Source of the DNA: Clostridia bacterium
Lineage (GTDB): Bacteria > Bacillota_A > Clostridia > Oscillospirales > QAKW01
Length of the DNA: 28,672 bases
Direction: 5' to 3'
NCBI GenBank assembly: GCA_017396865.1
Contig: JAFQKO010000072.1
Coordinates: forward strand, 1 to 28,672
This document shows, one piece after another, positions 1 to 18,921 of the stretch. A model generated the notes under the pieces. The model saw only the letters and a list, made by a program, of their open reading frames with translations. It made no database searches and was not told where the DNA came from. The stretch's first letter is position 1. Each line of letters begins with the position of its first letter. The position numbers and the translations under genes are program-made.

Positions 1-570
1 ACCACCTTCGTAAGCATATTCGAACAACATATAGTTATTGCCATCGATGGTAATCTCACCGATTTCGGTTTTGTTCCAAGTGTTGTGATAAGAGGTTCCG
101 ATCAGAGAACCGTCTGCAGAACCAATCTCAATGGCAACGAGAGTACGGATATAAGCATCGGTCTTACCGGTGTTCTCGACAGTAACAAACTTATCCTGTG
201 CATTAGAAGCGGCCTTGAAGACATCCATACCGCCGTAAGAGTCAACCTGAGTCATACGGACAATAGTGGAATCCCAATCCCAACCGGGACCGTTGGTAAC
301 AAGTGCGGAAGGCAGCAGGGGCTTTGCCTGTGTGAAGTCCTTCAGCACATAGCTTGTTACATCGTCGATGGTATCGGTTGCATAATTACCGTTTGCATCG
401 ACAACACGCTCATACTCGTGTTGCTCAATGGACACGTTGCCAAGGGTCATTACGTTGACGTCGCTGTCGGTATCCTGCAGATAAGCAACGGTGCCTGCGA
501 TGGAAAGGGCAGCCACAGAAGCCAGAGCAGTTACGCTCAGCAACATCTTCTTAACAGAAAACTTTGCCAT
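1..570 (-). CDS. SipW-dependent TasA/camelysin-like surface protein (partial, C-terminus off window)
   Basis: The reading frame starts at ATG 570-568 behind AAAGGAG and is open through 190 codons to the window edge, so the C-terminus is missing. Residues 1-30 form a SipW-type signal peptide: a basic start, a hydrophobic core, then GTVAYL followed by N...LGNV, the pattern seen in TasA/CalY-type secreted fibre proteins. It also carries VENTGKTDAYIRT, a block shared with the proteins at 2179-3636 and 3667-4536. The first ~50 residues are almost identical to those of the 2179-3636 protein, while the rest differs, which suggests a recent duplication or gene conversion. It is the last visible gene of the sipW operon, 63 bp after the pilin gene. 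By family it should be secreted and polymerise or sit on the cell surface. The exact role is unknown, and other SipW substrates are not all fibre formers. Confidence 0.85.
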   Translation of the reverse strand, partial: MAKFSVKKMLLSVTALASVAALSIAGTVAYLQDTDSDVNVMTLGNVSIEQHEYERVVDANGNYATDTIDDVTSYVLKDFTQAKPLLPSALVTNGPGWDWDSTIVRMTQVDSYGGMDVFKAASNAQDKFVTVENTGKTDAYIRTLVAIEIGSADGSLIGTSYHNTWNKTEIGEITIDGNNYMLFEYAYEGG

Positions 571-633
571 GGTTTATTTCTCCTTTTTATAATTTAAAAA
601 TTAATTACGTTTTTTCGGGCGGTTGCCCGGGGC

Positions 634-2130
634 TCATTTACTCTTGCGCTTGCGCAGAATGAGCCCCACGGCAATGGCCAGCATCAGGGCTACGCCGCTG
701 ATGATCATCACCCAAAGAACAAGGTGATAGTTGCTGTGATCACCGGTATCGGGATCACCCGGATCGGGTTTAGCGGGCGGCTCAGGCTTAGAAGGCGGCT
801 CGGGCTCGGCGGGCGGCTCATAGTGGTAGATATTTTCAAACTCTGCCACAACCTCATCCACGCTCATGCCGTTCTGCGTGATCAATGCCTCAAGCTGATG
901 GGCCTCGTTGTGATAAACCTCGATCACAAGCTCATAAACTACGTCGCTATAGGTGACGTGCTCCTTGCCGTCGTTATACTCAAACAAGGTATAGGTGAAG
1001 GTCTTGCCTGCATCCGCATCGGTAAAGACGAGATCAAAGCTTGCAAGTCCATTTGCATCGGTAACGACCTTATGCTCGCTGCCGCTGCCTTCGTTTCTCA
1101 GAACAAAGGTGAAATCGGAGGGCGCCATCGTGCCAACACCGGTTACCTTCACTACCTTATTGACCTTGACGGGGACCGAGATATCCTCGGCAGGCAGATA
1201 GGTATTGGTGAAGCTCGCATCCACAAGGAAGCGATCCTGCTCGGCATCATACCGTGCCTCCACCCCATCGGAAACCTCGATGGATTGAATTTCAAGCTGT
1301 CCGTCCATCGTTTCGTCGCCAACCAGGGCGGTCAGGGTATGCACCGTTTGATCGTAGGCAAGACCTGCGTCGGTGCCCTTCAGTTCGGAAAGACGGAACT
1401 GATATTCACCCGCCCGCTTAAAGCTGATGGCGTTCAGCAGATCGGTGAAATCAAATTGGGCAAAATCGGGATTCTTCGCATCATAGCGGATCACGCGGTC
1501 GCCCAGGGTCTTCCATTGCTCACCGTCCAGCATCTCCAGACGAACGGTGAAGGAATCGCCCTCCTTCCACTCTCTGCCGACCAAGCTCTTGGTACCCTGC
1601 AGCGTGATGCAATTATCGGCCACCTTCGGCTTATAAACGTTGGTAATCTCTGCAATGGCGGCGTGCTCGGTATTGACCGTTGCGGTGGTGGTGGAAATTC
1701 CGTTCTTCACTGAGAAGCCGGGCAGGTCGGTGGGCAGCTCCCGAACGGTCGCTACCGTACCGGCATCGATACCCTCGATGCCGATGGCCTGACCGGGACG
1801 CAAGGTCAGCGAGAGAACGCCCCGTTTATCGGCGGTAACCGTACCGCCGTCGGTGGTTTCGAAAACGTACTCGGAATAATAACCGCCGAGCGCAACTTCA
1901 AAATCAAAGGTAATGTTATCGGGGATCTTATAGCCCGCTCCCAGCGGATGCTCCAGCTTTTTGGAGACCACCAGATCGCTCAGCGCGATCTCCTGCGGCA
2001 TAAAGCGATTGACCACCGGCGCGGTTTGCGCACGCACAAAGGCGTGGGTGGCGGGAACCAGCATCCCTGCAAACAAAAGCATCAGAAGCAACAACGCCGA
2101 TGCGCGCTTTACAATATGCAATTTACCCAT
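634..2130 (-). CDS. Spy0128/FctA-like pilin protein with variant sortase sorting signal
   Basis: This 498-residue protein has an ordinary Sec signal peptide (cleavage likely after ATHA, residue 30), unlike the SipW-type signals of its neighbours. Three beta-rich domains follow, at about 48-168, 172-310 and 316-437. The second and third resemble streptococcal pilin isopeptide-linkage domains, with an early Lys, a mid-domain Glu (FRLSEL; TLFEYNDG) and a terminal Asn block (FTNTYLP; FENIYHY). Such Lys-Asn bonds would make the protein rigid and protease resistant. A Pro/Glu/Lys wall-spanning segment (438-460) leads to DPDTG (459-463), a hydrophobic span (469-491) and a KRKSK tail: a sorting signal with DPxTG in place of LPxTG. 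That resembles the (S/P/N)PxTG motifs used by clostridial class B sortases. No sortase lies in this operon; one is at 18130-18885. It is inferred to be a covalently anchored base or shaft. The domain calls are by eye. Confidence 0.85.
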   Translation of the reverse strand: MGKLHIVKRASALLLLMLLFAGMLVPATHAFVRAQTAPVVNRFMPQEIALSDLVVSKKLEHPLGAGYKIPDNITFDFEVALGGYYSEYVFETTDGGTVTADKRGVLSLTLRPGQAIGIEGIDAGTVATVRELPTDLPGFSVKNGISTTTATVNTEHAAIAEITNVYKPKVADNCITLQGTKSLVGREWKEGDSFTVRLEMLDGEQWKTLGDRVIRYDAKNPDFAQFDFTDLLNAISFKRAGEYQFRLSELKGTDAGLAYDQTVHTLTALVGDETMDGQLEIQSIEVSDGVEARYDAEQDRFLVDASFTNTYLPAEDISVPVKVNKVVKVTGVGTMAPSDFTFVLRNEGSGSEHKVVTDANGLASFDLVFTDADAGKTFTYTLFEYNDGKEHVTYSDVVYELVIEVYHNEAHQLEALITQNGMSVDEVVAEFENIYHYEPPAEPEPPSKPEPPAKPDPGDPDTGDHSNYHLVLWVMIISGVALMLAIAVGLILRKRKSK

Positions 2131-2178
2131 GGCGTTATCGCCTCCTTTCTCCTTTTTATTTATCCTCGGCCGATCAGA

Positions 2179-3636
2179 TTACTTAAGGGTGTTATAGAAT
2201 ACGGTTGCGCCGTCCAAGCTCTTGATCAAAAGACCGTAGCTGTGGCTGGTGGAGAATGCATTATACAAATTATCGGCCATAGCCTGATCCTTTACGTAGA
2301 ACGTAATTGCGCTGGCATCTCCATTCTCCTTATTGGTGAAATACATGCTGCCGCTTTCAAAGGTCACGCTGTCGCTGTAAATATAAACCTCTTTCAAATT
2401 TGCACAGGCACGAGCAACGTAGTTTGCGATCGTTACGTCCTTGGCGTTGATCACGATCTTCTCCAAGCTGCCGCAAGCGCCGAAAGCCTGCTTGCCGATA
2501 TAGGTTACGTTTTGAGGAACGGTGATTTCCTTAATGCCGCTCTGCTGGAATGCGCCTTCATCGATATAGGTAAGGCTTTCGGGCAAAGTAACCTCTTCCA
2601 AAGCGGGAGCTTTGCAGAGGGCGCGATTATTCAGGCGCTCAATCCCCTCGCCAACGTAAACCTCGGTGACCTCAGATTGACCGTCGGAAAGAATGCCGCG
2701 ATACAGAACGGTGCCGCCATCGGAATTTACGGTAGCGGTCTTACCCTCGATAACATAGGCTACACCTTCATAATAAGTATCAACTACGGGAATATCCATA
2801 CCGCCCATCCACTCGGCTGCCTTATCGGCAGATGCGCCAAAGGCGGTGTCGAGAGCGGTCTTGGCATCGGAAAAGCCTGCCGCCTGAACAGCTTGGGAGA
2901 GGGCGATGATTTCATAGGTTCCGCCCAGCAGCTCCATATCCTCGTTGGTTGCATGATGGGTCAAAACAGCCTGAAGCAAAGAGGGATGAGCCTGATTGCC
3001 GGCTGCGAGGGCCTTCTGATAGGTTGCCTCCCAAACAAAGTAGCGAACGTTATCAACGGTGATAAAGCCCACTTCTGCCCACGTATAGAGATCGCTGCCA
3101 TTCGTATTGATCATGATCTCCGCTCCGTTAGCGGCCTCACCGATGGTCATCCCAACGGGGCACTCAAAAGCAAGAATGGTGCGGAAATAAGCATCGGACT
3201 TACCGGTATTCTCAACGAACACCATCTTATCCATCACGTTGGAGAGATTGTTGTCATCCCAAAGACCGTTGCCTGCGGTACCGGTGTATACGTAGTCACC
3301 CCAGAAGAACAGATCCTCGTCATTCTGCTCTGCACTGTAGTCAGTAGAAACGTTGTTTTTAGGAACTGCGGGATAAATTGCCTGACCCTTCTTAAAGGGA
3401 ACCAGCGCGCCTTCCTTCACGCCGTTGCCTGCGCCCATATCGCCTGCATCATGAGCAACGCCTTCGGCGCGCTGATATTCGTGCTGCTCGATGGAAACGT
3501 TGCCAAGAGTCATTACGTTGACGTCGCTGTCGCTATCCTGCAGATAAGCAACGGTGCCTGCGATGGAAAGGGCAGCCACGGAAGCCAAAGCAACTACGCT
3601 CAGCAACATCTTCTTAACAGAAAACTTCTTTGCCAT
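2179..3636 (-). CDS. SipW-dependent TasA-like protein fused to BspA-type leucine-rich repeats
   Basis: This 485-residue secreted protein has two parts. Residues 1-285 are a TasA/camelysin-like module: SipW-type signal (AALSIAGTVAYLQD), LGNV strand, VENTGKSDAYFRT block, and YEIIALSQAVQAAGF near the end, all shared with the 289-residue protein encoded next upstream. Residues 330-450 are BspA/LRR_5-type repeats with the spacing L..V.LP.SL..I...AF, for example VTLPESLTYIDEGAF and ITVPQNVTYIGKQAF. BspA repeats are common in host- or matrix-binding surface proteins, so this looks like a fibre subunit carrying an adhesive head. The start is ATG 3636 behind AAGGAG; Ala-Lys-Lys follows. It lies 30 bp from the upstream gene and 48 bp from the downstream pilin gene with no terminator seen between them. 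The tip or adhesin role is inferred. Confidence 0.88.
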   Translation of the reverse strand: MAKKFSVKKMLLSVVALASVAALSIAGTVAYLQDSDSDVNVMTLGNVSIEQHEYQRAEGVAHDAGDMGAGNGVKEGALVPFKKGQAIYPAVPKNNVSTDYSAEQNDEDLFFWGDYVYTGTAGNGLWDDNNLSNVMDKMVFVENTGKSDAYFRTILAFECPVGMTIGEAANGAEIMINTNGSDLYTWAEVGFITVDNVRYFVWEATYQKALAAGNQAHPSLLQAVLTHHATNEDMELLGGTYEIIALSQAVQAAGFSDAKTALDTAFGASADKAAEWMGGMDIPVVDTYYEGVAYVIEGKTATVNSDGGTVLYRGILSDGQSEVTEVYVGEGIERLNNRALCKAPALEEVTLPESLTYIDEGAFQQSGIKEITVPQNVTYIGKQAFGACGSLEKIVINAKDVTIANYVARACANLKEVYIYSDSVTFESGSMYFTNKENGDASAITFYVKDQAMADNLYNAFSTSHSYGLLIKSLDGATVFYNTLK

Positions 3637-3666
3637 GGTTCTTTTCTCCTTATATAAATGAAAAAA

Positions 3667-4536
3667 TTAAACAAGATTTTCAAACCACTCTACCAAATTG
3701 GCGGCGGTAATATCGCCGAAGCCCGCCTTCAGGGCAGTCTCTGCGCCAACCGATTCAAAGCCTGCGGTCTGAACAGCCTGGCTCAATGCGATCACATCAT
3801 AGGTTGCGCCAAATTGGCTTACAACCGCCGCATCGGCAGCGCCATCCATACCAACCTGCAGAAGGCTGGGGCGGGAAACGGTGCCGGGCTTGAGGGGAAC
3901 GTTATAGGTTGCCACCATCACGCCGTAGACCTCGCCGTTCACGGTAACGGTTTCGGGGATATTCCCCTCGCCGCCAAACGCCCAATCGAAGCGGGAATCA
4001 TTGTTCAGGTTAAAATGAATCATGCCCTGGCCACCGGCGTTGGTTGCCTTCGTCTCATCATATTCATAAAGGAAGATGGTGCGATAGTAAACGTCATCGT
4101 TGCCGGTATTCTCGACAAAAACGAACTTATCTTGCACGCCCTTCAAAGCAGAATCCCAAACGCCTGCGGCATAAGGGGCGTTAACGTCGGCAGTTACCAA
4201 AGCACCGAAATTAACATAAGCCTCATCAGCTGCAACGCCGGGAGCCCATGCCGCGGGATCGTTGGCATCCTTGCCGCTTGCAATATATGCGGCGGGCATC
4301 AACTTTTTATTCTGAACGTAGTCCTGCAGATCAGCGGGGGTCTGCTGATCCTGCTGCGTCATATCCACACGCTCTTTTTCGAGCTGAACGATCTCAACCT
4401 TACCGAGGGTCATGGTATTGACATCGGAATCGGTGGAGGTCAAAAACGCATAGGTGCCGCCGATCACACCAACCGTTGCAACAACGGTGGCGATCACGAT
4501 CAACAGAACGCTCTTTAACGTCAATTGCTTCTTCAT
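3667..4536 (-). CDS. SipW-dependent TasA/camelysin-like surface protein
   Basis: A 289-residue secreted protein. Its N-terminus has a SipW-type signal: MKKQ, hydrophobic span 8-28, then GGTYAFLTSTDSDVN and MTLGKV. The body shares VENTGNDDVYYRT and YDVIALSQAVQTAGFE with the neighbouring LRR fusion protein, whose N-terminal half is therefore a paralogue of this whole protein. It ends at VEWFENLV, just where the paralogue continues into its LRR extension, so it may be the plain shaft version of the same subunit. The gene is 11 bp downstream of the 4548-5177 gene, with GGAGATAACCG before ATG 4536. Fibre function is inferred from the family and from the adjoining sipW; no enzymatic motif is visible. 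Confidence 0.87.
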   Translation of the reverse strand: MKKQLTLKSVLLIVIATVVATVGVIGGTYAFLTSTDSDVNTMTLGKVEIVQLEKERVDMTQQDQQTPADLQDYVQNKKLMPAAYIASGKDANDPAAWAPGVAADEAYVNFGALVTADVNAPYAAGVWDSALKGVQDKFVFVENTGNDDVYYRTIFLYEYDETKATNAGGQGMIHFNLNNDSRFDWAFGGEGNIPETVTVNGEVYGVMVATYNVPLKPGTVSRPSLLQVGMDGAADAAVVSQFGATYDVIALSQAVQTAGFESVGAETALKAGFGDITAANLVEWFENLV

Positions 4537-4547
4537 CGGTTATCTCC

Positions 4548-5177
4548 TTAGGCAATTTCGGTCCAAGCGGCGTAAGCGGTATCGATGTTCTCCTGCTGCA
4601 CAGCATAACCGGTGAAGGTCAGGGTGGGCAGCTTAGCGGGATCCAGAGCGTTGAGCATATTCTTGGTTACACTCTCCAGAACGGTTACCTTATCGTCGGT
4701 CAGCACGTGGAATGCGGTATCGGCGGTAACGGCATCCACCTCGCGGTAGAAAACGCCTGCAACGTCGGCACCGTTGTCATCCTTCAGCTGAGTCCAGCCG
4801 GTGGCAATGGTGTAGGTCATGAAATCGTCGAACTTGGGATCGGCAGACTCCTCTACCTTAACAAACAGGTAGCAAGCCTCGCTGCCCTCCAGCACGGTGA
4901 TGATAGGATCCTTGGTAATATCGCTGCCGGGCATCATCTTGTAGGTGTTGGTGTTGGCATCGCCGTCGTTGTCGAGCTGGGTATCGGTCTCAACGAGGGT
5001 GATATCGATATCACCGTAGGTAAAGGTGTTGGTAACGGCATCGGTCTGGGTGATCAACCAAGCAACGGTACCGCCGACTGCGCCGCCAAGCAGCAGAACA
5101 ACAGCGATCAGCAGAGCGCCAACCTTGGTTCCTGCCTTGGTAACAGCATTGTTGTTTTGATGTTTTGCTTTGTACAT
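4548..5177 (-). CDS. SipW-dependent TasA-like secreted protein
   Basis: A 209-residue protein with a polar N-terminus (MYKAKHQNNN), a hydrophobic signal segment at 18-40 and the SipW recognition pattern GGTVAWLITQTDAVTNTFTYGDI. It then follows the compact TasA-like plan shared with the 5218-5868 protein: ITLVETDTQLDNDGD, a Pro-Gly-containing strand (MMPGSDITKDPIITV), an ACYLFVKVEE strand, and the terminal FTGYAVQQENIDTAYAAW. The last motif is a recurrent end signature (A.Q...I/F..A..AW) of these proteins. It is the third gene of the operon, 40 bp after its paralogue. It has about 30-40% apparent similarity to that paralogue, so this is an older duplication than the 1-570/2179-3636 pair. It is probably a major or minor fibre subunit; which one cannot be told from sequence. 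Confidence 0.88.
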   Translation of the reverse strand: MYKAKHQNNNAVTKAGTKVGALLIAVVLLLGGAVGGTVAWLITQTDAVTNTFTYGDIDITLVETDTQLDNDGDANTNTYKMMPGSDITKDPIITVLEGSEACYLFVKVEESADPKFDDFMTYTIATGWTQLKDDNGADVAGVFYREVDAVTADTAFHVLTDDKVTVLESVTKNMLNALDPAKLPTLTFTGYAVQQENIDTAYAAWTEIA

Positions 5178-5217
5178 TTTTGGAATCTCCTTCCTTATTT
5201 AAAATAATTTTTTAAAA

Positions 5218-5868
5218 TTAGTCGACCTGTGCGTCGAATGCGGTCCAGGCGGCATCCTCTGCATTTTCAAAGCCGCTCACCTGAATGGCATGGGCATTGA
5301 AAACCATCTCAAACTCGCCGTTGGTGCCGTAGAGTGCCTGCAGATCTGCACCGTCCAGAACCGAGGGAACTGCCAGCGTTTCAAAGAGAGCGGGCAGCTC
5401 AACTGCGCCGTTCAGACCGGAAACGGTGGTCTTATAGCGATACTCATAAACCAACGTATCGTTGGCGGTATCTTCGGTAATTCCCTTCAGGATCCAATCT
5501 GCGTTCAGATCGGTGATGAAGTCGTCCAGCTCCAGGTTCTTATCATTCATGATCGCCTTCAGATCTGCAGCGTTCTTCAGGGTCATCATGATACGAACGT
5601 AGGCCTCCTCGCTACCATCCAGAACCGTAACGGTGGGGTCCTTGGTGTAGCTTTCACCGGGGATCAGATGGTAGGCGTTCTTCTTGGTATCGTTGTCGCT
5701 GTCCACGTCGGTTTCATCGAGGGAAAGCTGCACGTCACCAACCGTAAAGGTGTTGACCGCCTCATCTGCGTCGATCAGGTAAGCCAGCGTACCGGCCACA
5801 CCTGCTGCTACCAGCGCCAATACGCAAGCGATCAGCGCCAATACTTTGCCGAGAGATTTTTTCTTCAT
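5218..5868 (-). CDS. SipW-dependent TasA-like secreted protein
   Basis: A 216-residue protein directly downstream of sipW (21 bp gap), a typical place for the signal peptidase's main substrate. The N-terminus MKKKSLGKVLALI begins a signal peptide ending in AGTLAYLIDADEAVNTFTVGDV, a clear SipW-type cleavage region. Further features are LSLDETDVDSDNDTKKN, LIPGESYTKDPTVTVLDGSEEAYVRI and the C-terminal FNAHAIQVSGFENAEDAAW. The alternating hydrophobic pattern suggests a jelly-roll-like beta sandwich as in TasA and camelysin. It lacks the HExxH metalloprotease motif, so a structural rather than proteolytic role is favoured. The start is ATG 5868 preceded by AGGAAAG. Confidence 0.88.
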   Translation of the reverse strand: MKKKSLGKVLALIACVLALVAAGVAGTLAYLIDADEAVNTFTVGDVQLSLDETDVDSDNDTKKNAYHLIPGESYTKDPTVTVLDGSEEAYVRIMMTLKNAADLKAIMNDKNLELDDFITDLNADWILKGITEDTANDTLVYEYRYKTTVSGLNGAVELPALFETLAVPSVLDGADLQALYGTNGEFEMVFNAHAIQVSGFENAEDAAWTAFDAQVD

Positions 5869-5889
5869 GGGTCTTTCCTCCTAATTAAT

Positions 5890-6384
5890 TTACAAATTTT
5901 CACGTCCTCGCAGATATTCCGAAAGAAATACCAGCGCAACGATAAATCCAATGGTTAAAATCGAAACGATCCTGCCTGCCGCCGTTTGCAAAAAAGCTGC
6001 CAGCACGCCCAGACCGGGAATGGAGAACACCGGCGTTCCGATCACCCGCGCGGCATCCACAAGATTATGATCGGCCTCTTCGTTGGCGTCGCCCTTGGTG
6101 CGGAACGCAAGCGAATTACCGTCCTCAACGATTTCTATGATTCGATGGGTTGCTACCGTTTGACTGCCAGCCATGTGAAAGGTGATCACATCCCCCGTAA
6201 GCAGCGCCTCGGGAGCAGCCTCCTTAACGTAGATCAAGGACCCTGTCGGATACTCGGGCTCCATCGAACCGGAAAGAATCGTATAGGGCTCTACCCCAAA
6301 CAATCGCACACCGACCAGCAGAATCATTAAAATTACCACGATCGCAATCAGAACCGTCGAGGAGATTTTAAGTACCTTAGACAA
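5890..6384 (-). CDS. sipW: SipW-type signal peptidase I (Ser/His catalytic type)
   Basis: A 164-residue integral membrane signal peptidase. A membrane span (7-29) precedes the catalytic block YTILSGSMEP, with nucleophile Ser40. The second conserved block is VATHRI, where His80 replaces the Lys of ordinary bacterial signal peptidase I; this is the hallmark of SipW and the ER/archaeal type. GDANEEAD (Asp99) is the third conserved box. A second span (about 136-156) is followed by a basic tail. It would cleave the SipW-type signals of the five TasA-like proteins encoded after it. The start appears to be TTG 6384-6382, 11 nt after AAAGGAAAG; no better ATG precedes the first span. It is the first gene after the promoter at 6421-6449, so the whole operon is sipW-first, unlike the tapA-sipW-tasA order of Bacillus. 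Confidence 0.93.
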   Translation of the reverse strand: MSKVLKISSTVLIAIVVILMILLVGVRLFGVEPYTILSGSMEPEYPTGSLIYVKEAAPEALLTGDVITFHMAGSQTVATHRIIEIVEDGNSLAFRTKGDANEEADHNLVDAARVIGTPVFSIPGLGVLAAFLQTAAGRIVSILTIGFIVALVFLSEYLRGRENL

Positions 6385-6420
6385 ATTCTAGCCACACTTT
6401 CCTTTTTAATATGCTCTGTC

Positions 6421-6449
6421 ATTATACACCTTCAAATTAAATTTGTAAA
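6421..6449 (-). promoter_or_regulatory. Promoter of the sipW fibre operon
   Basis: On the minus strand TTTACA (6449-6444) and TATAAT (6426-6421) are separated by 17 bp. Transcription would start about 30 nt upstream of the sipW TTG codon. The flanking 6450-6543 is very A/T-rich with no other gene seen. Confidence 0.75.
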
Positions 6450-6543
6450 GGGCTTTTTGATGGAAATTAAAAATAATTAACATTACTTTTTTAATTGCAA
6501 CTTAGGTTTGACATTTTTCTCAAAGTCTCATCGTATTTTTTAC

Positions 6544-6577
6544 AAAAAAACACCCCGCTTGCCTCGCAAACGGGGTG
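6544..6577 (-). terminator. Intrinsic terminator of the isomerase/dehydrogenase operon
   Basis: The stem CACCCCG.TTGC/GCAA.CGGGGTG (6551-6577) has a CTC loop and is followed on the minus strand by a run of seven T (6550-6544), just 6 nt after the stop of the 6583-7410 gene. Confidence 0.9.
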
Positions 6578-9406: not shown

Positions 9407-10246
9407 TCAGATCGGGAACCCTACCTTGAGCGACCCGTTACTTTCATACATACGAACGAGATACCAGGCACCGTCGATCTTCAAAGCAATCATCTCTTCC
9501 TCATCGGTTTTTTCGCCCTTTGAGCCTTCGATCGTAAGATCAACCTCAAGCTCATAGCCTTCCGTTACCGATTCTGCGGGAATATAAAAGGTTTTCTCCA
9601 AGTATTCGGCAGCTCTTTCCAGCTTTGGCTCGCTGAGCTCTTTTTCTTCCGTCAAGTCATAAGAAACCGTATACTCCTCGCCGTATTCTTCTTCAAGATT
9701 AATACGCTGTCTTTCAAACCGATCTTCAACCTGATAGAGATACTCAGCCTTTGAGGTGTTTTCATAATCCTCTATATAGTCCCAACACTCGGGAGGAAGC
9801 ATATCCTCAACCTGATCATAATTTCCCTCATAAAGGGCAAGCGCCTTATCCAAGGCCGAGGAATAGCTGCCGCCTCCTCCGCCGAGGAAAACGATCAATA
9901 AAACGGCAGCAACCGCAACAACCAACAAAGCGGCGATGATGCCGATGATCAGCTTGTTATTGCTCCGAGGCGCGGGCGCTGCATAAGCGCCGGGTGCCGC
10001 ATAGGCGGGTGCGCCGTAGGCAGGGGCCTGCGGTGCAGTATAGGCAGGGGCCTGCGGTGCAGTATAAACCGGCACTTCGGGCGCAGGCGGCACATTATAA
10101 GTGGGTACTTCAGGAGCGGGGATGGTATAGCCGGGTGCTTGGGGTGCGGGGGCGGCCGCAGGCAGTTCGCTCTTGGTGCCGCAGCTCGGGCAGAAAACAG
10201 CAGCGTCATCTAACTGCTTGCCGCAGTTTTGGCAAAATTTACTCAT
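9407..10246 (-). CDS. Zinc-ribbon, Pro-rich linker, single-span membrane protein (paralogue of 10343-11227)
   Basis: A 279-residue protein without a signal peptide. Residues 5-23 are a zinc ribbon (CQNCG...FCPSCG, two CxxC knuckles). Residues 28-95 are a low-complexity Pro/Ala/Tyr linker (units like APQAPAYT and PEVPTY). Residues about 98-121 form one hydrophobic span flanked by RSNNK and GGGG. Residues 125-279 form an acidic ectodomain (alternating helix and strand, IDGAWYLVRMYE near the end). The predicted topology is zinc ribbon inside, C-terminal domain outside. It shares promoter, RBS, first 23 residues and plan with the next upstream gene, so the two are tandem duplicates with diverged ectodomains. 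The family resembles widespread Firmicutes zinc-ribbon membrane proteins of unknown function. Start ATG 10246 follows AGGAGGG. Confidence 0.85.
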   Translation of the reverse strand: MSKFCQNCGKQLDDAAVFCPSCGTKSELPAAAPAPQAPGYTIPAPEVPTYNVPPAPEVPVYTAPQAPAYTAPQAPAYGAPAYAAPGAYAAPAPRSNNKLIIGIIAALLVVAVAAVLLIVFLGGGGGSYSSALDKALALYEGNYDQVEDMLPPECWDYIEDYENTSKAEYLYQVEDRFERQRINLEEEYGEEYTVSYDLTEEKELSEPKLERAAEYLEKTFYIPAESVTEGYELEVDLTIEGSKGEKTDEEEMIALKIDGAWYLVRMYESNGSLKVGFPI

Positions 10247-10276
10247 GGGAAATCCCTCCTGTGCCTTATTAATTGA

Positions 10277-10305
10277 AGCATATCACAAATGTTGCATTTT
10301 GTCAA
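10277..10305 (-). promoter_or_regulatory. Promoter of the 9407-10246 gene
   Basis: Minus-strand TTGACA (10305-10300) and TATGCT (10282-10277) are spaced 17 bp. The same -35, spacing and unusual -10 precede the paralogue at 11258-11286. Confidence 0.8.
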
Positions 10306-10308
10306 CAA

Positions 10309-10338
10309 AAAACAGCGGTCCTTGCGGACCGCTGTTTT
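10309..10338. terminator. Intrinsic terminator after the 10343-11227 gene
   Basis: A 13-bp stem AAAACAGCGGTCC/GGACCGCTGTTTT with loop TTGC starts 4 nt past the stop codon of the minus-strand gene and is immediately followed by the next gene's promoter. Confidence 0.92.
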
Positions 10339-10342
10339 AAAA

Positions 10343-11227
10343 TCAATCTTCTACTCTGTATACACAGCTTTGAGCCGCGTCGAAGCTCACACTATAAGAA
10401 CCGTCATCCTCATAATAAGAGAATACATAGAAATCACCGTCGATTTCAACTACCGAGTAAGTTTGGGTATCAGAGTCTTCATACCCATTCCAGCTTGCTG
10501 TGTACTCACCCTTAACATCGTATACAGCACTTACATTCGACGCCTTGATGTCGTATTCTGCTTCCAACGCCTCAGCAATGCCCTCTACCTCATCGGAATC
10601 CAATTCTTCGCATTCTTCTTCCGAGAACGAGACAGAAACGGAAATTTCCGACACACTATCGCCATAACGCTCGTCGCATCTTTCGATAATCTCGTCCACA
10701 GACATATCGTATTCATCTTCAACCCATGCCCAGTACTCTTCCGGAGCCAGATCGGCGATCGCATCAAAATCACCCAAATCAACATCAATGCTCGTATCGA
10801 TCGCACCCAAATAACCGCCGCGACCGCCACCAAAGAGAAGGATCACCAGAACAACGATCACTGCAATGGCTGCAACGGCAGCGATAATGCCGATCATCAG
10901 CTTCTTATTGTCCTTGGGTGCGGGAGCCGCATAACCTTCGGGCGCAGCATAAGCGGGAGCGCCGTAGACAGGTGCCTGGGGTGCAGTGTATGCAGGAGCC
11001 TCGGGTGCTCCGTAAGCGGGTGCCTGGGGTGCAGTGTATGCAGGAGCCTCGGGTGCACCGTAAGCAGGAGCCTGGGGCGCAGTGTATGCAGGAGCCTGGG
11101 GCGCAGTGTATGCAGGAGCCTCGGGTGCGGGTGCTGCTGCAGGCAGCTCATCCTTGGCACCGCAGTTCGGGCAGAAAACGGCATTATCATCTAACTGATT
11201 GCCGCAGTTTTGGCAAAATTTACTCAT
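10343..11227 (-). CDS. Zinc-ribbon, Pro-rich repeat, single-span membrane protein (paralogue of 9407-10246)
   Basis: A 294-residue protein built like its neighbour: zinc ribbon at 5-23 (CQNCG...FCPNCG), a longer repeat linker at about 34-106 made of APAYTAPQ, APAYGAPE and related 8-residue units, a hydrophobic span at about 110-132 (KLMIGIIAAVAAIAVIVVL), then a strongly acidic ectodomain (140-294) rich in Asp/Glu/Ser and ending in Tyr-rich strands. The ectodomain matches the neighbour only loosely in its spacing (YWAWVEDEY against CWDYIEDYE), so selection on that part is relaxed or diversifying. Start ATG 11227 follows AGGAGG. It is monocistronic, with its own promoter and terminator. The function is not recognised; a surface sensor or envelope-associated role is only a guess from topology. 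Confidence 0.86.
   Translation of the reverse strand: MSKFCQNCGNQLDDNAVFCPNCGAKDELPAAAPAPEAPAYTAPQAPAYTAPQAPAYGAPEAPAYTAPQAPAYGAPEAPAYTAPQAPVYGAPAYAAPEGYAAPAPKDNKKLMIGIIAAVAAIAVIVVLVILLFGGGRGGYLGAIDTSIDVDLGDFDAIADLAPEEYWAWVEDEYDMSVDEIIERCDERYGDSVSEISVSVSFSEEECEELDSDEVEGIAEALEAEYDIKASNVSAVYDVKGEYTASWNGYEDSDTQTYSVVEIDGDFYVFSYYEDDGSYSVSFDAAQSCVYRVED
10912..11125 (-). repeat. Coding Pro/Ala/Tyr tandem repeat
   Basis: About eight 24-nt units encode APAYTAPQ or APAYGAPE. They are in frame within the zinc-ribbon membrane protein and form its linker. The neighbouring paralogue has fewer units, consistent with repeat-number drift. Confidence 0.85.
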
Positions 11228-11257
11228 GGGAAAACCTCCTAAATTTCATTATATAGA

Positions 11258-11286
11258 AGCATAGCACATTCAAAACGTTTTGTCAA
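11258..11286 (-). promoter_or_regulatory. Promoter of the 10343-11227 gene
   Basis: Minus-strand TTGACA (11286-11281), 17 bp, TATGCT (11263-11258). It is the twin of the promoter at 10277-10305. Confidence 0.8.
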
Positions 11287-11317
11287 TCAATTCCCCTCCC
11301 GAATATCGACTCGGGGG

Positions 11318-11346
11318 TTGACAATCGCCCCGTTTTCATTTAAAAT
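11318..11346 (+). promoter_or_regulatory. Strong forward promoter upstream of a non-coding leader and tRNA-Leu
   Basis: TTGACA (11318-11323), 17 bp, TAAAAT (11341-11346). Transcription would run through 11353-11516, which has no convincing gene, into the tRNA. A small inverted repeat CCCGA/TCGGG (11297-11314) sits between this promoter and the opposing one at 11258-11286. Confidence 0.6.
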
Positions 11347-11469
11347 ATACACCGACCCAATGATGCAGCAGCTGCCGCAACACGAGAAATACCGAGCGAG
11401 CCTCCGCTCGCGACGGATTTGTCGATGTTGCAAAGGTCTTGCTGATCAAGGCTTTTTCTGCGCAGAATT

Positions 11470-11497
11470 TTGCAAGCACGGGCAGAAACCCTATAAT
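11470..11497 (+). promoter_or_regulatory. tRNA-Leu promoter
   Basis: TTGCAA (11470-11475), 16 bp, TATAAT (11492-11497), placed about 20 nt before the tRNA 5' end. Confidence 0.65.
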
Positions 11498-11516
11498 TAA
11501 ATAAGTTAAATAATAT

Positions 11517-11599
11517 GCGGGCGTGGTGGAATGGCAGACACGATAGATTTAGGATCTATTGCCTCAAGCGTGCAGGTTCAAGTCCTGTCGCCCGCACCA
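11517..11599 (+). tRNA. tRNA-Leu (anticodon TAG)
   Basis: An 83-nt class II tRNA with encoded CCA. The acceptor stem GCGGGCG pairs with CGCCCGC (11589-11595), discriminator A, then CCA 11597-11599. The anticodon stem ATAGA/TCTAT encloses the loop TTTAGGA with anticodon TAG at 11550-11552, reading CUN leucine codons. The T arm is GCAGG-TTCAAGT-CCTGT, and a short variable arm stem is present as expected for leucine. A strong terminator follows at once. The 3' 25 nt are repeated exactly 145 bp downstream. Confidence 0.97.
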
Positions 11600-11635
11600 A
11601 AACAAAAGGATACCCTTGCGGTATCCTTTTGTTTT
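11600..11635 (+). terminator. Terminator of tRNA-Leu
   Basis: A perfect long stem ACAAAAGGATACC/GGTATCCTTTTGT, with further A/T pairs outside it, and loop CTTGC begins right after the tRNA CCA end. Confidence 0.93.
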
Positions 11636-11720
11636 CGTTTGGGGGATGTGCTCTTGTATCTGCCCGCCATCGGCGGGAGCAGCGCCGGAAGCGCCTGCGC
11701 TTCCAAGTCCTCTTGGGGGA

Positions 11721-11745
11721 GTTCAAGTCCTGTCGCCCGCACCAA
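11721..11745 (+). repeat. Exact 25-bp copy of the tRNA-Leu 3' end (remnant or att-like direct repeat)
   Basis: These 25 bp are identical to 11576-11600, covering the T-loop, 3' acceptor strand and CCA. No matching 5' tRNA half lies before it; the 85 bp between (11636-11720) contain stacked small hairpins, for example GGAAGCG/CGCTTCC. It has its own terminator downstream. It may be an integration-site scar or the relic of a second tRNA-Leu. Confidence 0.8.
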
Positions 11746-11747
11746 TC

Positions 11748-11773
11748 AAAATCCGCATCACGATGCGGATTTT
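11748..11773 (+). terminator. Intrinsic terminator after the tRNA 3' remnant
   Basis: Stem ATCCGCAT/ATGCGGAT (11751-11770) with flanking AAA and TTTTT. The stretch from 11774 to 11895 holds nothing recognisable. Confidence 0.8.
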
Positions 11774-11895
11774 TTCCTTATAAAAGGAACAAGAAGAAAG
11801 AGTAGACTTCCTTTCTCCTTGCAATCATTAATATTAGTGCATACTTTAGGTTTTACCTATTTTTCTGCGGTCGGTGCCTTTTTTAACAGTTTAAT

Positions 11896-11932
11896 AAAGA
11901 CCACGGTAACGCTGTTGCGTACCGTGGTCTTT
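11896..11932. terminator. Terminator of the ABC exporter operon
   Basis: A 13-bp perfect stem AAAGACCACGGTA/TACCGTGGTCTTT with an 11-nt loop lies 40 nt past the stop of the minus-strand ATPase gene; it has A/T tails both ways. Confidence 0.85.
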
Positions 11933-11972
11933 TGCTTTTGATACAAAAATGCGCAGAAATACTGCCCAAGGC

Positions 11973-12725
11973 TTATTTTTTAGGCGCGGGGGCTTTGCCC
12001 AGCATTTTATTATAGAGAGCGGCTGCTTCGTCGATGGGGCCGTCGAAGACCTTTTCGCCATCCTTCATCAGGATGCCGCGGCTGCAAAACTCTTTTGCAA
12101 CCGCCACCGAATGGGTAACGAACATCAGGGTAAGGTTGCCGTCGGCCAGCATTTCATTGATCCGCGCAACGCACTTGCGCTTGAAGGATTCATCACCAAC
12201 GCTCAGCGCTTCGTCCACGATCAGGATATCCGGCTGAATATTCACGTTGATGGAAAAGCCCAGCCGCGCCTTCATACCGCTGGAATAGGTACGCACCGGC
12301 TGATCGATATAATCGCCAAGCTCCGCAAAATCAACGATTGCAGGCTCCAGCTCGGCAATCTCCTTATCCTGCAGACCGAGAATATGACCCTTTAAATAAA
12401 TATTTTCACGGCCGGTAAACTCCGGATCGAAGCCCGCCGAAAGCTCCAGCAGTGCACCGACACGCCCATCCACCGCGATCTCACCGGAGCTGGGGAATGC
12501 AACCTCGGTGACCATCTTCAGGATGGTGGACTTACCGGCACCGTTTCTGCCGAAGAACGCCACCGACTCTCCCTGCTTGATCTCAAAGGAAAGATCCTTC
12601 ACCGCAAACTTTTTCTTGCAGTTGCGATGGCGAAACAGCGCACCGATCAGGCGATGCTTGCTGTTTTTATAAAGGTAATAAATCTTATTAACGTTGGAAA
12701 ACCGAATTACTGTTTTTTTCTCCAT
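11973..12725 (-). CDS. ABC-2 exporter ATP-binding protein (TagH/Wzt-like)
   Basis: An ATPase of about 250 residues. Walker A is GRNGAGKST, the ABC signature is the exporter-type YSSGMKARLGF in place of LSGGQ, and Walker B is ILIVDEALSVGD. A switch His follows (FVTHS). The N-terminal insert YLYKNSKHRLIGALF and the signature variant match polysaccharide and teichoic-acid exporters (Wzt, TagH, RfbE). It lacks the C-terminal carbohydrate-binding domain of O-antigen Wzt, so it is a TagH-short or RfbB-like form. Start chosen at ATG 12725, preceded by GAGGTG at 5 nt; GTG 12743, overlapping the permease stop, is an alternative. It pairs with the permease encoded just upstream. No glycosyltransferases flank it, so the exported glycan is unknown. 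Confidence 0.9.
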   Translation of the reverse strand: MEKKTVIRFSNVNKIYYLYKNSKHRLIGALFRHRNCKKKFAVKDLSFEIKQGESVAFFGRNGAGKSTILKMVTEVAFPSSGEIAVDGRVGALLELSAGFDPEFTGRENIYLKGHILGLQDKEIAELEPAIVDFAELGDYIDQPVRTYSSGMKARLGFSINVNIQPDILIVDEALSVGDESFKRKCVARINEMLADGNLTLMFVTHSVAVAKEFCSRGILMKDGEKVFDGPIDEAAALYNKMLGKAPAPKK

Positions 12726-12739
12726 CTTTACACCTCGCA

Positions 12740-13552
12740 TCACAGAACGTCGGGAATCTCTTTTCTGAGCCGCTTATAGGCCCAAAGGGAAAGCAGCCAG
12801 AAGAGCAGAAGCCAGCAGAGGAAGCAAAGGCAACGCAGGGGATTTTCAAAGAACCAACGGTGATTCACAAAGCTGTTTCTAAAGCCTGTGATCAGGAAGG
12901 TGATGGGGTTTGCCGCCAGGAAATAGCGCACCCAGGTTGCATTGGAGACCGAATCGGCATCCCAAAGAATGCCCGAGAGCCAGAACAGCGGGGTAACAAA
13001 CGCCTTGACCAGATTGAGAAAATCCTTGCTGATCGCCGAAAAGAGCGCCGAAAATTGCGCCCAAAGGGTAAAGAACAGGAAGGAAAGCACAATATACAGC
13101 GGAAGCTGCAGATAATAGATATTCGGCGGGAAGCCCATGATCCAATAAATCACCACCAGCACCGCCACCAAAATCACGTTGATCATCATTTTGGAAAGGC
13201 TGAAGAAGGTGGAGATCACCGAAACGGGAAACTTCATCTTGGTAACCAAATAGGTATAGCGGCGAATACAGTCGGTGCCCAGCGTAAGCATATCCGCCAT
13301 ATAGAACCAGGGCACGATACCGCAGGCCAGCCAGAGGAAGAAGGGCACGCCGTTAACAGGTCTGCCGCTTCGCAGGCCGATCTCAAAGGCGAACCAATAG
13401 GTAAAGAGGGTCATACACGGCTTGATGACCGCCCAGCTCCAGCCCAGCGCCGCACCGCGATAGGTTTTCACCAAATCCGCTTTGGCCAGCTTAAATATCT
13501 GATGTACGTTTTGAGAATGATCACGAAGGATCTCTTTTAATACTTGGATCAT
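12740..13552 (-). CDS. ABC-2 type permease (TagG/Wzm-like)
   Basis: A 270-residue membrane protein with six predicted hydrophobic segments (around 32-55, 65-88, 110-135, 142-168, 175-195, 235-255). The N-terminal LAKADLVKTYRGAALGWSWAVIKP is the amphipathic start plus the conserved G-x-x-W/P segment of ABC-2 polysaccharide exporters. ANPITFLITGFRN near 215-230 is another family hallmark. It works with the ATPase encoded immediately downstream to export a lipid-linked glycan or teichoic acid across the cytoplasmic membrane. Start ATG 13552 follows GGAAGTG. It has its own promoter at 13594-13622. Confidence 0.9.
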   Translation of the reverse strand: MIQVLKEILRDHSQNVHQIFKLAKADLVKTYRGAALGWSWAVIKPCMTLFTYWFAFEIGLRSGRPVNGVPFFLWLACGIVPWFYMADMLTLGTDCIRRYTYLVTKMKFPVSVISTFFSLSKMMINVILVAVLVVIYWIMGFPPNIYYLQLPLYIVLSFLFFTLWAQFSALFSAISKDFLNLVKAFVTPLFWLSGILWDADSVSNATWVRYFLAANPITFLITGFRNSFVNHRWFFENPLRCLCFLCWLLLFWLLSLWAYKRLRKEIPDVL

Positions 13553-13701: not shown

Positions 13702-13730
13702 TTGACAATCTCAAATAATATATTTATAAT
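13702..13730 (+). promoter_or_regulatory. Promoter of the 13763-15988 gene
   Basis: Consensus TTGACA (13702-13707), 17 bp, TATAAT (13725-13730). Transcription would begin about 26 nt before the start codon, leaving a short leader with AAAGGAG. Confidence 0.88.
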
Positions 13731-13762
13731 TGAAGCAACTATACAGTAAAGGAGACAAAACC

Positions 13763-15988: not shown

Positions 15989-16014
15989 TTCCTTAGGGCG
16001 AACCGTTAAACCGG

Positions 16015-16041
16015 AAAGAGCCGAAGCCCCTTCGGCTCTTT
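16015..16041 (+). terminator. Intrinsic terminator between the two large zinc-ribbon genes
   Basis: Stem AAGAGCCGAA/TTCGGCTCTT with loop GCCCC, followed by TCTTTGG. The T-run is interrupted, so partial read-through into the next gene is likely. Confidence 0.8.
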
Positions 16042-16048
16042 CTTTGGT

Positions 16049-16086
16049 TTGCCGCAGCATTCAAAAGAGCTTGAATGCTGCGGCAA
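16049..16086. repeat. Perfect 16-bp inverted repeat in the leader of the 16123 gene
   Basis: TTGCCGCAGCATTCAA (16049-16064) and its exact reverse complement (16071-16086) flank a 6-nt loop AAGAGC. No T-run follows on either strand, so it is not a standard terminator. It ends 20 nt before the ribosome site AAAGGAGA (16107-16114). Confidence 0.85.
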
Positions 16087-16122
16087 GCCAAGCCTTCATC
16101 ATGCTTAAAAGGAGATACTATC

Positions 16123-18096: not shown

Positions 18097-18130
18097 AAAA
18101 TGAACGAAGCTTGGACGCTTCGTTCATTTT
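18097..18130. terminator. Bidirectional terminator between convergent genes
   Basis: Stem TGAACGAAGC/GCTTCGTTCA with a 6-nt loop and A/T runs on both sides. The segment 18016-18096 upstream shows nothing else. Confidence 0.9.
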
Positions 18131-18885
18131 TATTTAATTCTCTTAGCGACAACGACCAGGCGGCCGTCGTCTACCGAATATTCGCAGGTGGAGAGGGTGA
18201 GCAGCTCATCGCCGTATGCGGCGGTAACGCCCGTTTCATAAAGGCTGCGCTGCTTGCACTTTGCCACGTAGGCCTCAAATTCCGCCGCTTCGGCGGCTTC
18301 GGTGAACTGATAATACTTGAACTCATTATCCGCCGTTGTTTTGAACACCGCTAAAACTTCATAGGTACCGTAGCCCTCCAAGGTATCAAACCGAACATAG
18401 CGATGCTTTTCAAAATATGCCTTGCCGCGATAATGGCGCAATCCTGCAAACATGGTGCCGTTGTCCATGTTATGGCCGTAGATAACGATATTATCGCCGC
18501 CCGGGATGATGCAGTCGGCATCGGCAAAGGGCACACCGTAGTAGCTGTACTTTTTATCGTAGCCGCGGCGCAGATAATATTCGGGATCCTCGGGAGTTTG
18601 CACAACGGGATAGTTGATCGCCGTTCCCTCGATGGAGATCCAGCCGACAAAATCCGCATTCTTCGCCGCCACCTCGGCATACTTTTCCGCCGCCGAGAGC
18701 GTCGGCTCCCCCGCCTCATTCTTCGGCACCTCGGGGATCAGCTCCTCCAGCGCCTCGAATTGCTCGGCGCTGTTGGCCTCCTCCCGAAGGTTTCGAATCA
18801 CCATGAAGGCCGAAACGGCAAACACCACCGCCAGCGCAACCACAACGCTCCAATATAAAATTCGTTTCCAATTCCATTTTTTCAT
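18130..18885 (-). CDS. srtB: Class B sortase
   Basis: A 251-residue transpeptidase. A membrane anchor lies at 11-30 with the catalytic domain outside. The conserved blocks are in order: FVGWISIEGTAINYPVVQ, YGHNM with catalytic His138, TLSTCEYS with nucleophile Cys234 and GRLVVVAKRI with Arg242. The NM(x)GTMFAGLRHY helix after the His is characteristic of class B. It would attach surface proteins with an (x)PxTG-type signal to the peptidoglycan cross-bridge or polymerise them. The only visible candidate substrate in the window is the DPDTG pilin at 634-2130. ATG 18885 is chosen; it has no ribosome site and sits 6 nt after a perfect -10, suggesting leaderless translation. A TTG start 12 codons upstream would fall on the -35 box. 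Confidence 0.92.
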   Translation of the reverse strand: MKKWNWKRILYWSVVVALAVVFAVSAFMVIRNLREEANSAEQFEALEELIPEVPKNEAGEPTLSAAEKYAEVAAKNADFVGWISIEGTAINYPVVQTPEDPEYYLRRGYDKKYSYYGVPFADADCIIPGGDNIVIYGHNMDNGTMFAGLRHYRGKAYFEKHRYVRFDTLEGYGTYEVLAVFKTTADNEFKYYQFTEAAEAAEFEAYVAKCKQRSLYETGVTAAYGDELLTLSTCEYSVDDGRLVVVAKRIK

Positions 18886-18891
18886 GCTACC

Positions 18892-18921
18892 ATTATACAA
18901 ACTCCCCTTGAACGTTGTCAA
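18892..18921 (-). promoter_or_regulatory. Sortase promoter, probably giving a leaderless mRNA
   Basis: Minus-strand TTGACA (18921-18916), 18 bp, TATAAT (18897-18892). The expected +1 coincides with the ATG at 18885. The -35 is embedded in the terminator hairpin of the preceding gene. Confidence 0.8.

Follow-up and report, generated by a model that had tools for sequence, protein, structure and literature searches.

The first 6.4 kb of a 28,672-nucleotide stretch of DNA from a Clostridia bacterium (contig JAFQKO010000072.1; the whole stretch is called the window below) carries a single minus-strand operon, from position 6384 to 1. It encodes a SipW-type signal peptidase, five TasA/camelysin-like proteins and a pilin of the FctA type that carries a sorting signal; the gene order is sipW, TasA-like subunits 1, 2 and 3, a TasA-like protein with leucine-rich repeats (LRRs), the pilin and a fifth TasA-like gene (Table 1). 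The pilin itself opens with a SipW-type leader and a mature N-terminal strand resembling that of TasA-like subunit 2. A preliminary description of this DNA, which had listed sipW, at least five TasA/camelysin-like genes and an isopeptide-domain pilin with a sorting signal, was right about the gene content and overlooked this leader and strand. On the most likely reading, the pilin serves as base and nucleator for a TasA-type fibre, and on balance we favour an operon that would make such a fibre, with the pilin as a TapA-like, wall-anchored base seeding donor-strand polymerisation of the TasA-like subunits.

An initial pilin search found 16 relatives among 7992 scored. The alignment of 12 of them with the window pilin (A1, 13 rows) displayed the SipW-type N-terminal motif T-x-A-F-x-V-T-x-T-x-x-x-x-N-x-F-x-P; like the further alignments A2, A3 and A4, it consists of hand-chosen members and is incomplete. 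A scan of one genome per species gave 176 pilin relatives, from which 79 loci were kept, with hosts that are mostly uncultured Bacillota, chiefly Clostridia, many of them from ruminant guts. The FctA protein bears a SipW-type leader in 24 of the 79 loci. In the other 55 it is mostly a long adhesin, and in four of these (L017, L022, L053 and L054) it is cut at a contig edge, so that its leader cannot be judged.

The 24 leader-bearing loci were selected by a profile iterated over pilins, and the resemblance to TasA-like proteins was measured with pilin-free profiles. A subunit-2 profile built from 19 proteins gave 15.8–36.9 bits for all 25 short pilins (those of the 24 loci, with L003 and L019 scored from refined starts, and the window's, at 20.0 bits, E 1e-4), above every control. 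The best of 59 other FctA-type open reading frames (ORFs) reached 7.4 bits and the best of 3362 other ORFs 11.8 bits, these controls excluding ORFs previously classed as TasA-like or SipW. An earlier, more general TasA-only N-terminal profile separated the pilins partially: 20 of the 24 locus pilins fell at E < 0.01, with L015, L021, L024 and L047 above that value, the window pilin at 0.02 and three unrelated ORFs below 0.01. Three class profiles were compared on 24 pilins, namely the window's and every locus pilin except that of L015; the subunit-2 profile scored best on 19 of them, and of the other five, L003 and L019 had been given a wrong start. The spacing between the first aromatic residue and the conserved Phe/Met measures 11 in subunit 1 (17/18) and third-type proteins (28/33) and 12 in subunit 2 (18/19); in the pilins it is 12 in 18 of 24, 13 in five and 10 in one. 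These spacings are pattern-based and approximate, and a first pattern gave similar alignment figures.

Conservation in the pilins runs beyond the expected cleavage site to residue 45 and is followed by a variable linker. Mean entropy was 1.51 over residues 30–45, 2.70 in the linker, 1.36 at the start of domain 1 and 1.87 in the body, with Thr28 (24/24), Phe43 (23/23), Asn41 (21/23) and Pro45 (22/23) conserved. In AlphaFold2 models with the signal peptide included, the predicted local distance difference test score (pLDDT) was below 50 for residues 23–49 of the pilin and 25–41 of subunit 1, with ordered beta domains after them. These disordered mature N-termini fit a free strand, which is short of demonstrating exchange. 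The preliminary description had made its reading depend on an exchangeable N-terminal strand in the TasA-like proteins, and the disordered N-terminus of subunit 1 in this monomer model leaves that reading standing.

The pilin gene also travels with sipW. In 20 of the 24 leader-bearing loci, sipW lies upstream on the same strand; among the other 55, any sipW was found in one (L050; Fisher p 8e-14, which overstates independence since the loci are related). L004 also has sipW upstream of the pilin on one contig, at a distance of about 12.8 kb, bringing the linkage to 21 of 24. The pilin contigs of L007, L012 and L015 end short of any sipW; strong sipW matches occur elsewhere in the genomes of L007 and L012, and that of L015 has only a 44.8-bit fragment. 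Between sipW and the pilin lie one to six ORFs called TasA-like in the 20 loci and nine in L004; the same order, with six TasA-like ORFs, recurred in genome G480, which belongs to a 394-genome sample and lies outside the 79 loci. No TasA-like gene was found downstream of the pilin in the 24 loci within the available downstream DNA, so that the window is unusual in having one. The sipW–pilin linkage is thus conserved in relatives, a co-occurrence that the preliminary description had proposed to check.

The pilin could possibly be an independent wall-anchored adhesin that shares SipW export, its N-terminal motif being a mere cleavage signal and the TasA-like proteins forming a separate matrix. 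Consistent with this alternative, the contact between pilin and TasA-like proteins is a prediction from sequence, and in two further sipW operons the last gene encodes a sortase substrate of another kind (L111, PPKTG, without a leader match; L107, IPKTG, with a weak leader match, E 2e-3). However, conservation to residue 45, well past the expected cut, the best match of the pilin motif to a single subunit class and the sipW linkage in 21 of 24 loci all argue against it, and we regard it as doubtful compared with a pilin that forms the base of the fibre.

In the pilin, the leader and the strand at residues 30–45 are followed by three beta domains, a proline-rich linker, the sequence DPDTGD, a transmembrane helix and a basic tail, and the protein passed the cut-offs of FctA (70.1 bits, cut-off 22.1), DUF7601 (37.2, cut-off 27) and LPXTG_anchor (16.1, cut-off 15.9). 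Each domain has a Lys-Glu-Asn triad (57/131/164, 181/249/309 and 325/384/433), present in 22, 24 and 17 of the 24 relatives, respectively; by analogy with Spy0128, these are putative isopeptide triads. The middle (FctA) domain matches the group A Streptococcus T-antigen (1.5e-15 and 1.1e-14), and the third domain matches FctB (1e-4 and 7.3e-5), one FctB entry being named putative pilus anchoring protein. By these profile and motif assignments, the window protein qualifies as a predicted FctA/T-antigen-type pilin with an isopeptide-type triad in its second domain.

The sipW product scored 101.4 bits against TIGR02228 (cut-off 51.85) and 105.1 bits against the SipW model NF046067, under the latter's cut-off of 190. 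The motifs Ser-x-Ser-Met and Thr-His-Arg were invariant (20 of 20). Its Ser/His pair and its match to an ER/archaeal-type profile identify it as a predicted SipW-type signal peptidase I.

SipW-type signals had been claimed for all five TasA-like proteins. Only subunit 1 passed the cut-off of the SipW-signal model TIGR04088 (23.8 bits, cut-off 19), while the other four scored 14.2–15.6, and none of the five passed the camelysin cut-off of PF12389 (subunit 1, 20.0 bits, cut-off 22.5). Among chosen relatives, TIGR04088 matched, at E ≤ 0.01, 17 of 18 proteins of the subunit-1 class, four of 19 of the subunit-2 class and 19 of 33 of the third type, and PF12389 matched 14 of 18 subunit-1 proteins at the same threshold. 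Profile comparison links the TasA-like classes across most of subunit 1 (E 4e-34 and 1e-23), including the class of the LRR-bearing protein. The window proteins are assigned to the family because these relatives match TIGR04088 and the classes join by profile. Support for the TasA jelly-roll fold was weak: Foldseek put 8aur at rank 31 (E 0.038) and VIA gave no clear match. A PDB sequence search with subunits 1 and 2 found nothing relevant. LRR_5 is present in the LRR-bearing protein (65.9 bits, cut-off 27.7; 4.1e-18), making it a candidate adhesive subunit; the LRR-bearing adhesin of the preliminary description thus exists, as one of the five TasA-like proteins and not in addition to them. The leader of the fifth TasA-like protein is near-identical to that of the LRR-bearing one. 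The C-termini of third-type proteins vary in alignment A4, with a pectate-lyase-like adhesive domain in four of 33 and LRR_5 in two of 33.

The sorting signal of the window pilin is tripartite, with DPDTGD (not LPXTG), a transmembrane helix and RKRKSK. Likewise, the C-termini of 19 of the 24 locus pilins combine a sorting-signal-like motif with a hydrophobic stretch and a basic tail, with variants that lack P-x-T (L010, L014 and L020) or have Asn or Asp replacing Gly (L006 and L007). The L015 pilin is truncated, and those of L018, L021, L024 and L025 end without a sorting signal. That of L024 ends in a dockerin (2.6e-8), and that of L018 ends in an X-dockerin-type region matching 4iu2_B (1.4e-21), which we take to be the CttA X-dockerin; its Dockerin_1 match is below cut-off (0.0065). 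The C-terminus of the L025 pilin matches CttA_N (2.4e-11); a PDB search with the L025 and L021 C-termini gave no matches. The CttA X-dockerin has been described as binding wall-anchored ScaE (PMC4266597, PMC5301203). That two relatives have a dockerin-type module in place of the sortase signal amounts to a natural experiment, pointing to attachment as the conserved function. Cohesin was considered as a marker of dockerin-type hosts and was present in 17 of 21 hosts, so it does not discriminate.

A sortase was found in all 21 host genomes searched (of 24). Class C was over cut-off in 10 of them and not in the other 11, single absences being weak because the genomes may be incomplete. In six hosts, the sole sortase found was best matched by class B, over cut-off in five and at 102.7 against 153.75 bits in L081. 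The only sortase noticed in the window is of class B and lies about 12 kb from the operon. The class B enzyme SrtB of C. difficile is described as cutting (S/P)PXTG (PMC4155245), and the sortase B sorting-domain model matched one of 13 pilins. A sortase as a member of the operon is not supported: a search of the 24 pilin loci with a narrow SrtB-type profile gave no match. Matches to PF04203 lie away from the pilin loci; of 20 regions checked, a single one, in G007, shares a contig with the pilin, at a distance of about 12 kb. Polymerisation into a pilus by class C sortase is unlikely, given that 11 of 21 hosts lack such an enzyme over cut-off and six have one sortase, best matched by class B. 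A classical pilus of this kind, with the FctA protein as shaft and the TasA-like proteins as accessories, would agree with the T-antigen match of the FctA domain and with the 10 hosts that do have class C, but the operon is without a visible sortase and the dockerin-ended versions carry no sorting signal, and we give it a small chance. The proposal of the preliminary description, SipW-processed subunits with a covalent wall anchor, is strengthened by the leader of the pilin and its conserved linkage, but a mixed sortase pilus is unlikely, and the fibre itself remains putative.

From the gene content and order, the conservation, the N-terminal similarity, the triads and the anchor modules, we infer how a fibre with the pilin as its base may be built. 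Both the TasA-like subunits and the pilin would have their leaders removed by SipW, and a class B sortase would join the pilin C-terminus to the wall through its P-x-T-G-D signal. The isopeptide-locked, Ig-like pilin domains would form a rigid stalk, from which the free N-terminal strand, matching that of subunit 2, would insert into the first TasA-like subunit and start donor-strand polymerisation, a mechanism already proposed for TapA. Adhesive side or tip subunits may be provided by the large TasA-like proteins whose C-termini are LRR or pectate-lyase-like. It is evenly balanced, in our judgement, whether such operons represent a distinct class of Gram-positive fibre, namely a non-covalent, donor-strand heteropolymer of TasA-like subunits on an isopeptide-locked, wall-anchored base whose anchor is interchangeable between a class B sortase signal, a dockerin and an X-dockerin. 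How TasA-type fibres attach to the cell is not settled, and a wall-anchored pilin with a TasA-type leader and strand offers a direct, testable answer. By joining these to a pilus stalk and a wall anchor, it connects two fibre classes usually kept apart, and it gives uncultured gut Bacillota a plausible adhesion organelle.

Several known systems share parts of this arrangement. The S. pyogenes FCT pilus (FctA/T-antigen and FctB) has the FctA isopeptide domain, the FctB-like third domain and the sorting signal, but it relies on a pilus sortase of its own and, in place of SipW, on a SipA-type chaperone, and it is not known to include TasA-like subunits. The R. flavefaciens CttA/ScaE X-dockerin docking resembles the end of the L018 base subunit, but there the X-dockerin is described as holding cellulose-binding modules (PMC4266597), whereas here it would hold a fibre base. 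The tapA-sipW-tasA operon of B. subtilis is alike in SipW, SipW-type leaders and a low-abundance partner with a complete Ig fold and a subunit-like N-terminal strand (PMC10151520, PMC9674648). TapA, with its complete fold, is proposed in these accounts to donate but not accept a strand (PMC10151520, PMC9674648), and a role in the anchoring of TasA is suspected (PMC9674648). By analogy, the pilin would share this one-way strand donation and add a wall anchor to it. Unlike the B. subtilis system, the operons described here have several types of subunit and would be anchored covalently or through a dockerin-type module. TapA is not known to have a sorting signal or FctA/isopeptide domains. In B. 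cereus, SipW serves two TasA-like subunits, TasA and CalY, that form heteropolymers, and the C-domain of the helper CapP appears to retain it at the cell surface; that system is described as sortase-independent, with a disordered CapP C-domain instead of an isopeptide stalk and sorting signal (PMC13082335).

The C. perfringens sipW-bsaABCRSD locus has a SipW-dependent, beta-rich fibre protein, several putative secreted proteins and an adjacent srtB, which makes the contrast that the preliminary description drew between TasA systems and sortase pili too sharp; as far as the account of it goes, BsaA lacks an LPXTG-like motif, srtB is dispensable for BsaA polymers and no FctA-type base subunit is mentioned (PMC7395162). 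An ordinary secreted matrix operon of this SipW/BsaA type, in which the pilin plays no part in the structure of the fibre, has a precedent in these srtB-independent polymers (PMC7395162) and in the match of the BsaA model TIGR04090 to four of 18 subunit-1 proteins, but the pilin bears a subunit-type leader and strand and the two relatives that lack a sorting signal keep an attachment module of another type, leaving it a very small chance. Among the titles and abstract openings listed by searches of openly licensed PubMed Central papers, none describes the combination of SipW, TasA-like proteins and an FctA-type pilin, and a search of that literature for SipW together with Spy0128 returned nothing.

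The base pilin marks a subset of SipW systems, and most sipW loci are without it, because it is rare in genome samples and none of the FctA/SipW-leader kind was found in 12 other sipW neighbourhoods (L100–L111), several of which are cut by contig ends. In 200 genomes of one family, a sample drawn around G002, sipW relatives occurred in 37 and a full-length pilin in G002 alone; in the 394-genome sample of the order, with at most three candidates scored per genome, a full-length pilin occurred in seven, six of them already known. The sortase substrates that end the sipW operons of L107 and L111 are encoded at 9700–10572 and 11090–12067, respectively, and operons of this kind suggest that TasA-like proteins may have acquired wall-anchored partners on more than one occasion.

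Table 1. Features of the sipW operon, its flanking signals and the candidate anchoring enzyme, in window positions
Feature	Position	Strand	Basis or remark
sipW-like Ser/His signal peptidase	5890..6384	-	TTG start; family profiles
TasA-like subunit 1, 216 aa	5218..5868	-	TIGR04088 over cut-off
TasA-like subunit 2, 209 aa	4548..5177	-	Class with N-terminus closest to that of the pilin
TasA-like subunit 3, 289 aa	3667..4536	-	ORF list and family profiles
TasA-like subunit with C-terminal BspA-type LRR, 485 aa	2179..3636	-	LRR_5 match
Pilin/putative base subunit, 498 aa	634..2130	-	FctA, DUF7601, LPXTG_anchor; N-terminal profile
Fifth TasA-like gene	1..570	-	Open at window end
Promoter-like TTTACA-17-TATAAT upstream of sipW	6421..6449	-	11/12 consensus bases
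Terminator-like hairpin closing upstream gene	6551..6577	-	12 pairs, 8 GC, T tail
Class B sortase, candidate anchoring enzyme	18130..18921	-	TIGR03064, 172.4 bits, cut-off 153.75

The sipW operon is probably its own transcription unit because the terminator-like hairpin closes the upstream gene. The promoter scan gave 10 sites overall against 6.5 expected (standard deviation 2.9) and the terminator scan eight against 7.1, neither clearly above chance, and the promoter is a consensus match only.

Elsewhere in the window, two similar zinc-ribbon membrane proteins with Pro/Ala/Tyr-rich repeats are encoded side by side at 9407–11227 (minus strand), and a tandem pair of long zinc-ribbon membrane proteins of similar layout, matched at E ≤ 0.001 by ribbon-type models only, at 13730–18015 (plus strand). 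An ABC exporter pair (ABC_tran and ABC2_membrane), presumably of the kind used for surface polysaccharides, lies at 11973–13552 (minus strand). A tRNA-Leu at 11517–11599 (plus strand) was the window's single RNA family hit above the gathering score.

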